64,000 bases of DNA. It comes from Candidatus Binatia bacterium (GTDB lineage: Bacteria; Desulfobacterota; Binatia; UBA12015). A program made the translations under genes and the position numbers. The notes beneath the pieces are model-generated. The model made no database searches. It saw only the letters and a program-made list of their open reading frames with translations, and was not told the DNA's origin. The stretch spans positions 1 through 64,000 of the forward strand of contig JAQWJE010000046.1 in assembly GCA_029248525.1 (NCBI GenBank), written 5' to 3'. This document shows, piece after piece, positions 52,554 through 55,394 of the stretch; within the stretch, counting starts at the first letter, position 1, and every line of letters starts with the position of its first letter.

Positions 52554-52561
<8 letters not shown>

Positions 52562-53717
52562 CAAAAATCTCCGCTTCCCCGTCGGGAAGAATTTCCTGCG
52601 CTATCGTTTCCCTGTTCCAAACGCTGTCACCAAAGGCGACTTCAGAACTTTTGGCGCGCTTAAAATATATGTGCATGTCATGCTCCCAGGTGAACCCGAT
52701 CCCGCCATGGATCTGAATGCCTTCACCGGCGACCTCCCGGAATGCATCGGAGCAATAGGCTTTTGCCATGGCAGACGCCAGATGCGCTTCCGGAGACCCG
52801 CTTGCGATCGCCCATGCAGCGTACCACGCCGCCGAACGACCGCTCTCCACTTTCACCATCATATCGGCACATTTGTGCTGGATCGCCTGAAAAGATCCGA
52901 TCGGCTTTCCAAATTGCTCCCGCACCTTGGCGTAATCGACCGACATTTCGAGGATCCGGGCGGCACCGCCGCAAGATTCCGCCGCCAAACCCGCTCTTGC
53001 CGCGTCGGCGAGTCGCTCCAGTTGCCGCCACCCGGAGCCCTTGGCGCCCACCCGATCGGCCAGGGGCACCCGCACCGCGTCGAGGCGTACCTCGGCTTGT
53101 TTGCGTGTCTGGTCGAGAGTCTTCAAACCGGTCATCGTGACGCCGTCCGCCTTGCCGGGGACGAGAAAGAGATCGATACCGCTTGGCCCCTCGCTCCCGG
53201 CCTCCCGCGCGGCCACGATGAGCCAGTCCGCACCGATGGCATCCGGGACGAAAACTTTTGTTCCCCGCAATTCGACGCCACCGGAGACCGGGCTCCATTC
53301 GGCCTCGATGGCCTCCGGGGCAAGTTGTCCCGAGCTTTCCAACCAGGCAATGGTCGCGCGGATCTCCCCCGCGGCAATTCCTGGCAACAGGGCTCGGGCG
53401 GCGGGACCTGTCGCCTGCGCAGATAACAGGCTCGCCGAGCAAACCGCTGTAGAGAAAAAAGGCCCCGGCAAGACAACACGGCCCATTTCCTCGAGCAGCA
53501 GCGCCATCTCGACAAAGCTCAATCCAATCCCCCCATCCTCCTCAGGAATCATCATGCCGAGCCACCCAAGCGCTGCCATTTGGCGCCAGAGGGCGGGGTC
53601 GTGTCCCTCCTCCTCGGCCATCAAACGGCGGACCAGAGTCATCGGGCATTCCTTTTCGAGAAATGCTCGTGCCGAATCGCGTAATAGCTCCTGATCTTCG
53701 TTGAATCCGAAATCCAT
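52554..53717 (-). CDS. Acyl-CoA dehydrogenase
   Basis: 387 aa. N-terminal helices with [31 protein letters not shown], middle domain [21 protein letters not shown], and C-terminal [31 protein letters not shown], with GFTWEHD resembling the ACAD family members that use an alternative catalytic residue position. The strong SEPxAGSD flavin loop is not seen, as in the dehydrogenase at 9.1 kb. It oxidises an acyl-CoA, electrons going to ETF. It is first in the ACAD-acs-cysS operon and divergent from the sigma-54-type AAA+ gene. Confidence 0.9.
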
Positions 53718-53921
53718 TATGATCGCCTACAAGCTTTCCCGCGCTCGAGGAGAAAGCTGACGCCCAGCGCCAATTTTTTGACGTTTCGCGAGTTTTCGTC
53801 AAGCCCTCGACGGCATTCCGCGCCGCCCGCTCGAGCCGACGCGGGCAACCCGATCCGCGAACCCCTGCGGAATGTAGGCCGATTTGTGTCCCATAACAAT
53901 CTCGGGGGGGCAATTGGCCTT

Positions 53922-53937
53922 TGGCATTGCCATTGCA
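53922..53937 (+). promoter_or_regulatory. Sigma-54 (-24/-12) promoter
   Basis: TGGCA-TTGCCA-TTGCA places GG and GC exactly as in the sigma-54 consensus (TGGCAC-N5-TTGCA), with one departure (C to T). Expected start near 53948, only about 6 bases before the ATG at 53954. It would be read by RpoN-RNA polymerase; rpoN is not in the window. The leader is very short, so the real start codon could be downstream. Confidence 0.55.
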
Positions 53938-53953
53938 TCCGTAGTTTCAAACC

Positions 53954-54913
53954 ATGAACGGAATCACACCTCGAATCAGTCTGATCGACGTGCGGGCACT
54001 TCGCCCCGCAAGCTTTGGTGCCAAAACGGAGAACGGAACCACCGGAGGGAGACTTTCGCCACTTGAAGCGCTCCTGAGGCCGCGAAGCGCTGCTGTGGAA
54101 CGCGAACTGCCCGAGGAAATTCCATCTGGCAGCTTCTACGGCATGGTCGGCCGAAGCCCGGCCATGCTCTCGGTTTTCGCCACGCTGGCGAGAATGGCGG
54201 CCTACCCCGTCACACCGCTCCTCCTCGGAGAACCCGGCTGCGGTAAAAGTTGTGCGGCGAAGGCCCTTCACCGAGCCTCGGATCGCGCCGCAGAACGGAT
54301 GATTTCCTTTGATTGCCGACAGGCTCAGGACCTGCCGATCGAGAGTATTCTCTTCGGCCAGGTCGGCGGAATTGCTCCCGCGCAGAATTCGGCCGATCGG
54401 CCCGGATTGCTCGAGATGGCGCATGAGGGGACGCTTTATCTGCAAGAAATCAGCGAACTTCCGATAGACGTGCAGGTGAAACTCCTGCGCTTTCTGGAGT
54501 CTCGCGAAATCCGGCGTGTCGGCTCTGCGCAACTCAGGCGGTTGGATGTGCGAATCATCACCTCGAGCGAGAGAGATCTCAGCCTTCTTTGCACTCAGGG
54601 GAAATTCCGAGGAGACCTGCTCTACCGCCTGAATGTCGGATCGATCGTCTTGCCCCCATTGCGCGAGATCCCCGAGGACATCCCCATGCTGGTCAGTCAT
54701 CTTCTGGAGCGGGTCGCGATGGTCAACGGCCTGCCACCGCAGGCGCTCAGCGCTCAGGCACACCGGGAGTTGGCCGCATATGGCTGGCCGGAAAACGTAC
54801 GCCAATTATTTGCAGTCTTGCTGGCGGGGAGTCGGCGGGCCTGTGGACGTGAAATTCAGAACACGGATCTGGGCCTGCCCGCGATGGACCATCCCTCCAT
54901 GCCGGGCGTTTGA
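53954..54913 (+). CDS. Degenerate sigma-54-activator-like AAA+ protein
   Basis: 319 aa. Residues about 62-300 are a sigma-54-interaction AAA+ domain: Walker A GEPGCGKS (92-99), FGQVGGIAPAQNS, GTLYLQEISELP, LRFLESREIRRVGS, DVRIITSSERDL, FRGDLLYRLN (arginine finger) and WPENVRQL. Three hallmarks are changed: the sigma-54-contacting GAFTGA loop reads GIAPAQ (139-144), the Walker B Asp is Gln (Q164, LYLQEI), and there is no Fis-type DNA-binding helix-turn-helix after the AAA+ part. There is no recognisable receiver domain in the first 60 residues. It probably cannot activate sigma-54 promoters by the usual route and may instead act as an inhibitor or scaffold. A -24/-12 promoter precedes it. Confidence 0.82.
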   Translation: MNGITPRISLIDVRALRPASFGAKTENGTTGGRLSPLEALLRPRSAAVERELPEEIPSGSFYGMVGRSPAMLSVFATLARMAAYPVTPLLLGEPGCGKSCAAKALHRASDRAAERMISFDCRQAQDLPIESILFGQVGGIAPAQNSADRPGLLEMAHEGTLYLQEISELPIDVQVKLLRFLESREIRRVGSAQLRRLDVRIITSSERDLSLLCTQGKFRGDLLYRLNVGSIVLPPLREIPEDIPMLVSHLLERVAMVNGLPPQALSAQAHRELAAYGWPENVRQLFAVLLAGSRRACGREIQNTDLGLPAMDHPSMPGV

Positions 54914-54925
54914 GCGACGGGGCGC

Positions 54926-55207
54926 TCAGGCGTCAGCGGTGCCTTCCCGCGAGCGAAAGAGGCGGTCGATGCTCTCCTCCTCACGGTTGGCTTCGAGCAA
55001 GGCTCGCAAAGTCTGTTCCAGCGCGGTCAGCTCGGTATTCACGGTCACCAAAGACTCCACCAGGCCAATCCAGGACTCCTGTTCGGGAAGCGGTGCGTCG
55101 CCTTCCTCGCAAATCGTTACGCATTTCTGCGTCACTTCCAGAACGCCTTCCGAGGCGCCCTCCAGATGTGTGGCCAAATCAATAAACGTATGACGATCGA
55201 TAATCAT
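54926..55207 (-). CDS. Small acidic helical protein of unknown function
   Basis: 93 aa from ATG 55207, with GGAGG 9 bases upstream. Predominantly helical and acidic, with heptad-like spacing in WIGLVESLVTVNTELTALEQTLRALLEANREEE (about residues 44-76), compatible with a coiled coil. Two Cys (TQKCVTICEEGD) sit near residue 30. It is convergent with the degenerate AAA+ gene (stops 12 bases apart). No family recognised. Confidence 0.6.
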   Translation of the reverse strand: MIIDRHTFIDLATHLEGASEGVLEVTQKCVTICEEGDAPLPEQESWIGLVESLVTVNTELTALEQTLRALLEANREEESIDRLFRSREGTADA

Positions 55208-55394
55208 GGGGATTTTCCTCCAAGCCCGGAAATCAACTGTGTCGGACCTGCTTCCCCTTAAAGGCAAGTGGAGTGCCAGCTTGGACCACGCAAAATAAGG
55301 CTTTTTTCGGAACCCCAACCTTGCATCCGCACAACATTGGGGCAGTTCTTGCGGCAGCGCTCGATTTCGGGAAATGCGCCGCTACCCGAACGCC

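Follow-up and report, generated by a model that had tools for sequence, protein, structure and literature searches.

The window, which is the whole 64,000-nucleotide stretch of DNA analyzed from a Candidatus Binatia bacterium, carries a pseudo-activator gene (53954-54913, plus strand) whose orthologue at the same genomic place in relatives is a conserved NtrC-type (REC-AAA-HTH) sigma-54 activator. Its protein, P0001, is 319 aa long from the first ATG and is probably no longer able to turn genes on. Our tentative reading, which we hold with limited confidence, is that P0001 may be a FleT-like, AAA+-only pseudo-activator that is driven by sigma-54 and works in trans on a second activator, probably damping it.

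Retained and lost parts of the pseudo-activator

The 322-codon frame of the pseudo-activator was open in two genomes of one species (G000 and G118). P0001 matched the Pfam model Sigma54_activat (PF00158) with E = 7.9e-45 and also AAA_lid_14, with weaker matches to other AAA models, and the AAA+ domain and lid were placed at residues about 61-312. No Pfam match to a receiver domain or to an HTH was found in P0001. The closest fold to the P0001 model was the AAA+ domain of FlrC (TM 0.92-0.93 of target), and the AAA+ domains of NtrC1 and ZraR also matched. The ten-residue pLDDT means of the core model were mostly 82-97, with 76 at residues 61-70 and 64 at residues 141-150, and residues 1-60 were predicted to be disordered. 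An opposite-strand ORF (53717-54805) was rejected as a real gene because the AAA+ homology sits in the plus-strand frame.

The characteristic motifs were compared with 40 activators, which were 11 of the genome's own 12 (L008 absent) and 29 from the class. P0001 keeps 63 of the 88 columns conserved at 85% or more, compared to 73-88 in the other activators. Walker A (54227-54250, plus strand; residues 92-99) is kept as GEPGCGKS, but with the substitutions S94P, T96C and E99S. GAFTGA or a close variant (GSFTDA, GAFSGA) was present in all 40 compared activators and absent from P0001, in which loop L1 (54365-54391, plus strand; residues 138-146) reads G-IAPAQN and is longer by one residue than in the compared activators. 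In Walker B (54431-54448, plus strand; residues 160-165), D164 is replaced by Gln and E165 is kept. Furthermore, sensor I AATN became TSSE, the glutamate-switch Asn became Asp, and R239 became Ile. The arginine-finger motif FRGDLLYRLNVG is kept, with both R219 and R225 present. The sequence-only reading, which had described a sigma-54-activator fold with Walker A and the arginine finger retained and with GAFTGA, the Walker B Asp and the C-terminal DNA-binding helix lost, was thus correct on both the retained and the lost parts.

The losses are unevenly spread over the domain. P0001 keeps 67 of the 110 positions that are invariant in 18 intact orthologues. These comprise 14/33 in the cis-catalytic and L1 motifs, 43/67 in the remainder, and 10/10 in the arginine-finger segment GKFRGDLLYRLNVG (54599-54640, plus strand; residues 216-229). 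The arginine-finger segment differed from all other invariants at p = 0.006, a contrast that was picked after looking at the data. Judged from the residues retained, P0001 has lost much of a subunit's own machinery and keeps the face that is offered to a neighboring subunit.

The receiver is also gone from P0001, with 58 residues preceding the AAA+ domain compared to about 153 in the orthologue L087. Receiver remnants in residues 1-58 were considered and rejected; the pairing was forced by the alignment, no Pfam receiver was matched, and the region was treated as unrecognizable. No Shine-Dalgarno sequence precedes the ATG (+0.5 kcal/mol, where L087, L093, and L092 have values near -6), and two of seven reference genes of the window likewise have a weak or no Shine-Dalgarno sequence (-2.8 and +0.7). 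The first 40 codons are noncoding-like, with G+C by codon position of 0.60/0.57/0.55 compared to 0.67/0.48/0.67 for the whole ORF. The true start may be more internal, for example at ATG 54143 (residue 64), which is likewise without a good Shine-Dalgarno sequence. At the other end, 12 nt separate the stop codon from that of the convergent 93-aa gene, compared to approximately 470 nt between the gene ends in L087.

A single match to the sigma-54 DNA-binding domain (rpoN) is present in the genome, along with 12 further activators whose matches are strong. One of these activators, L012 (G000 C50:2959-3459), has a short 349-codon frame and a branch of 2.55, with GAFTGA and Walker B intact. In an anti-phage library, P0001 matched the AAA+ part of RtcR-type models, which was not taken as membership. 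No viral contig was found by searching with P0001 itself. A seed-alignment search of viral contigs returned 46 general activator relatives at up to 41% identity, which were used only as alignment partners.

Origin of the gene and its sigma-54 promoter

Eight of the 12 other family genomes carry an intact orthologue, and in seven of the eight at least one shared neighbor stands beside it. In G004, G005, G008, and G011, the orthologue lies between the acyl-CoA dehydrogenase gene and the 93-aa gene, in the same orientation as in the window. Only the 93-aa gene adjoins it in G002 and G007, and only the acyl-CoA dehydrogenase gene in G009, where the contig ends. Neither neighbor is adjacent in G003, where approximately 9 kb lie between the activator and the dehydrogenase gene and the contig stops just beyond the activator. 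All eight orthologues are REC-AAA-HTH proteins with GAFTGA. The receiver of one of them, L089 (G004), reads TVSTTLLDETDG compared to TVSDVCMPGMSG in L087; the usual phospho-acceptor Asp seems to be lost from this receiver in an orthologue that is otherwise intact. No subfamily member and no 93-aa gene were found in G001, G006, and G010, which form genus g2, or in G012 (87% complete).

The activator subfamily (L104-L121) was represented once per genome in 18 genomes at E values of 1.1e-166 or lower, and the next best match was at 2.9e-121, with 10 candidates scored per genome. These intact proteins resemble P0001 in the AAA+ fold and in an upstream -24/-12 site, and the genome position is common to P0001 and its orthologues as seen in the window's family. 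Unlike P0001, all 18 keep the receiver anchor, GAFTGA, and the Walker B Asp; their HTH was read in the eight members of the window's family and in two of the other ten.

In the AAA+-domain tree, which was built without L008 and without eight class rows identical to the orthologues, P0001 joined the subfamily (89/84). Its tip length was 2.58 compared to 0.01-0.14 in the eight orthologues, and a tip of this length makes the exact place of P0001 in the tree unsure. A second intact copy of the subfamily was not found among the window genome's own activators in this tree or among the 10 candidates scored. Among 148 genomes of the class, the window's own included, only G118, which is of the same species and has an identical protein, exceeded the general activator background. 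Three further matches passed E 1e-56, with 44-45% identity and longer frames, and no close relative of P0001 outside its species was found in the 148 genomes. Over 9.6 kb, the locus L049 and the window were 99.97% identical, and none of the three differences was in the pseudo-activator gene. A horizontal gain of the pseudo-activator is disfavored by both the synteny and the tree.

The -24/-12 site TGGCATTGCCATTGCA is located at 53922-53937 on the plus strand and has one mismatch to TGGCAYRN4TTGCW. By the usual spacing from the -12 element, transcription is predicted to start at about 53948, which gives a 6-nt leader before the ATG. The window holds four sites of this quality, and shuffled sequences average 1.27, with 5 of 100 shuffles reaching four; therefore, the site by itself is not compelling. 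In the 4.27-Mb genome, the exact TGGCAYN5TTGCW pattern occurred 10 times compared to twice for a reversed control. Of these ten sites, at least three fall within long ORFs, and for one the listing shows no nearby gene start. Another exact site, L082 (G000 C49:589651), lies approximately 110 nt upstream of a type IV pilin-like gene and approximately 1 kb from the activator gene L005 (C49:588398).

Conservation in relatives, which had been proposed as a check of the promoter, was then decisive. A -24/-12 site was present upstream of all 18 intact subfamily members, compared to 1 of the 12 next-nearest activators, when up to two mismatches to TGGCAYRN4TTGCW were allowed within 350 nt with GG and GC fixed. 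The Fisher test gave p = 2e-7, which is a guide only since the sequences are related. Homologues without a conserved site, which the sequence-only reading had named as a refutation, were thus not what the comparison showed. Because the site stands upstream of the intact subfamily members, the window site is ancestral and conserved, and a chance origin is ruled out by the same contrast. The predicted promoter of the pseudo-activator is thus ancestral and really of the sigma-54 type. The claim that the gene has a sigma-54 promoter of its own therefore stands as to the site itself but not as to its ownership: the promoter is inherited from the intact REC-AAA-HTH activator in the same position and does not belong to the broken gene as such. 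Since the promoter is inherited, the circuit probably began with an activator gene under sigma-54-dependent control, and any negative loop would be a reversal that came later.

The convergent 93-aa gene, p93 (54926-55207, minus strand; its protein begins MIIDRHTFIDLATHLEG), has a strong Shine-Dalgarno sequence (-9.3 kcal/mol) and its own -24/-12 site TGGCACTCCACTTGCC at 55263-55278 on the minus strand, with a predicted start at about 55252. This site was seen in the window and in five relatives. The 130-aa ORF containing p93 (54926-55318) had no match in Pfam or NCBIfam. A single match to a solved structure, at E = 0.68, was taken as chance, and four distant neighborhoods read by eye gave nothing consistent about the function of p93.

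The p93 family was found in 45 of the 148 genomes at E values of 1e-4 or lower; in eleven of these genomes, the match reached only E 7.8e-8 to 3.5e-5. For the promoter scan, 29 of 56 listed matches were examined with up to two mismatches allowed; L135, which belongs to the window's species, was excluded, and no anchor was available for L160. A -24/-12 site was present 44-93 nt upstream in 21 of the 28 members with a usable start, a count made without a control set. Sorted by family, the sites were found in 6/7 members of the window's family, 0/6 of f6, and 15/15 of the others; the -12 part of the f8 sites reads TCGCT. Counting both strands, a 17-kb stretch of the window holds five sites of this two-mismatch quality, of which three do not belong to either promoter. 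Nine of the 21 site-bearing p93 genomes (eight in f4, f14, and f16, and G051 in f8) are without the activator subfamily, so another activator must serve the p93 promoter there. In the window species, one activator may serve both the p93 and the pseudo-activator promoters.

Decay or constraint

P0001 is 44-46% identical to its orthologues, which are 71-93% identical among themselves. The sequence-only reading had named frameshifts and relaxed selection across strains as signs of decay. The frame contained no stop or frameshift, and there was one in-frame insertion across 246 aligned AAA+ residues. In the codon model, omega of the window branch was 0.023 (free) or 0.050 (shared), and setting it to 1 cost 20.9 log units relative to the free model. 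This omega averages over the whole branch, which is saturated at synonymous sites and covers the period when the gene still encoded an intact activator.

Neutral evolution was also simulated up to 39% residue change, which is the fraction of invariant positions that P0001 has lost. When no indels were allowed, 31-79 of 1000 frames remained free of stops, so that stops alone are a weak test. With indels at rates of our choice (0.03-0.1 per substitution), 0-2 of 1000 frames remained without a stop or frameshift. In another neutral run without indels, the open frames numbered 19/300 at 60% identity and 3/300 at 46%. Since the neutral branch was rejected and neutral frames rarely stay open, pure decay of the pseudo-activator is unlikely. 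The gene is present in one species only, so selection on its present form cannot be measured.

The rates of the neighboring genes were compared as well. The acs gene showed 69-80% identity for the window and 67-90% for the others, with no speed-up in the window species. The 93-aa protein (60-77% for the window, 71-96% for the others) showed no speed-up like that of the pseudo-activator, and the oxidoreductase neighbor was variable everywhere (37-45% and 32-79%, respectively). The acyl-CoA dehydrogenase gene (52554-53717, minus strand) was also fast in the window species, with 60-64% identity compared to 73-94% between relatives.

A relic in slow decay, in which the receiver and HTH were deleted, drift proceeded under relaxed constraint, and the promoter has not yet been lost, is possible but somewhat doubtful. 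It would account for the loss of the receiver, HTH, L1, Walker B, and ribosome-binding site and for the noncoding-like first 40 codons. Loss has occurred elsewhere in the family, since the three genomes of genus g2 have neither the activator nor the 93-aa gene. In the acs+ACAD tree, which does not fix the window's own place, g2 falls together with g3 and g4, both of which retain the activator; the loss in g2 is therefore separate. Activator matches are also few here (13) and in g2 (8-15) compared to 24-38 in g3, g4, and g6, but g5, with 6 and 15 matches, still has the intact gene. Besides the open frame and the rejected neutral branch, slow decay has to explain why both -24/-12 sites, the gene's own and that of the 93-aa neighbor, are present despite far-diverged relatives. 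Simple decay is kept plausible by the missing ribosome-binding site, the noncoding-like N terminus, and the absence of the gene from every other species among the 148 genomes.

Possible roles in sigma-54 control

The nearest known counterpart is FleT of Rhodobacter/Cereibacter sphaeroides, and the comparisons here draw on excerpts of the cited papers. FleT has no receiver or DNA-binding domain, is expressed by sigma-54, and forms hetero-oligomers with FleQ (PMC11999139, PMC7175178, PMC3162934). It is called, in the excerpted text, the only known bEBP without both regulatory and DNA-binding domains (PMC7175178). P0001 is likewise an AAA+ activator without these domains, and its conserved -24/-12 site predicts transcription by sigma-54, by which the FleT gene is transcribed. 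However, FleT belongs to a working FleQ/FleT activator, whereas P0001 is without GAFTGA and the Walker B Asp and comes from a REC-AAA-HTH gene in place.

In this species, the ancestral REC-AAA-HTH activator has been cut down to its AAA+ domain. The parts for ATP hydrolysis in cis and for sigma-54 contact are gone, and the ancestral sigma-54 promoter, the predicted fold, and the arginine-finger face have stayed. Under the damper reading, one of the genome's 12 intact activators would drive RNA polymerase-sigma-54 to transcribe the gene, and P0001 would join an intact activator by co-assembly. Because P0001 has no working L1 loop, the output of the partner would fall, and P0001 would serve as a feedback damper without DNA binding. 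Eukaryotic AAA+ rings frequently include dead subunits.

The inhibitory sign of this effect would follow from PspF chemistry. Efficient activation is not seen with PspF rings in which wild-type and T86A (L1-dead) subunits alternate (PMC4132715, excerpts). Together with the FleT precedent, these mixed rings lead us to infer a damper that works by co-assembly, with a helper role as the alternative. Mixed activator rings are also used for control by HrpR/HrpS and by the VnfA paralogues, which act via hetero-oligomers (PMC9542535), as proposed for P0001; HrpR and HrpS keep all characteristic motifs (PMC7057263), unlike P0001. Interactions between bacterial sigma-54 activators are described in excerpts as seldom reported (PMC9542535). 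The open-licence literature, as far as its excerpts go, contained degenerate activators at sigma-70 promoters and hetero-oligomeric ones, and no natural activator that is GAFTGA-dead, DNA-binding-less, and used as an antiactivator was found in it. The sequence-only reading had proposed a dominant-negative or antiactivator that joins activator hexamers and gives negative feedback on RpoN-dependent transcription, a proposal that is partly supported here. In a stronger form, P0001 would be a naturally evolved dominant-negative that poisons the rings of the very activators that switch it on. We consider this form rather unlikely.

A positive accessory subunit, which would co-assemble as FleT does, retarget or tune an intact activator, and lend its arginine finger in trans, is decidedly unlikely. 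The wholly retained arginine-finger segment would suit such a role, as would the hetero-oligomeric action of FleT and the VnfA paralogues. PspF rings containing ATPase-slow subunits still activate, mainly on pre-opened DNA (PMC4132715, excerpts), but those subunits keep L1, whereas L1 is lost from P0001 and rings with alternating L1-dead subunits fail.

It is very improbable that P0001 is a moonlighting AAA+ protein outside sigma-54 control, such as a partner of the 93-aa protein. The two genes adjoin in six of the eight genomes with an intact activator, the two exceptions being G003 and G009, whose contigs end just beyond the activator, and both genes have -24/-12 sites. However, the 93-aa family is also present in genomes without the activator subfamily, and thus does not need the activator.

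GAFTGA-less activators of the TyrR/HupR/VpsR group bind DNA and act at sigma-70 promoters. P0001 shares the loss of the sigma-54-contacting loop with TyrR, DhaR, HupR, VpsR, and the NtrC proteins of Caulobacter and Rhodobacter (PMC10274813, PMC3162934, excerpts), but a sigma-54-independent regulator of this kind is hardly to be expected here, since the known examples bind DNA, with DNA-binding peaks reported for Caulobacter NtrC (PMC10274813), and P0001 has no recognizable DNA-binding domain.

The pseudo-activator may now restrain related switches or may simply be an old gene that is disappearing. Intact and disarmed orthologues share both the place and the promoter, so whether the disarmed form is a brake, a helper, or debris is directly testable. 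If the dominant-negative form is true, this species would have built a negative-feedback loop from a former activator.
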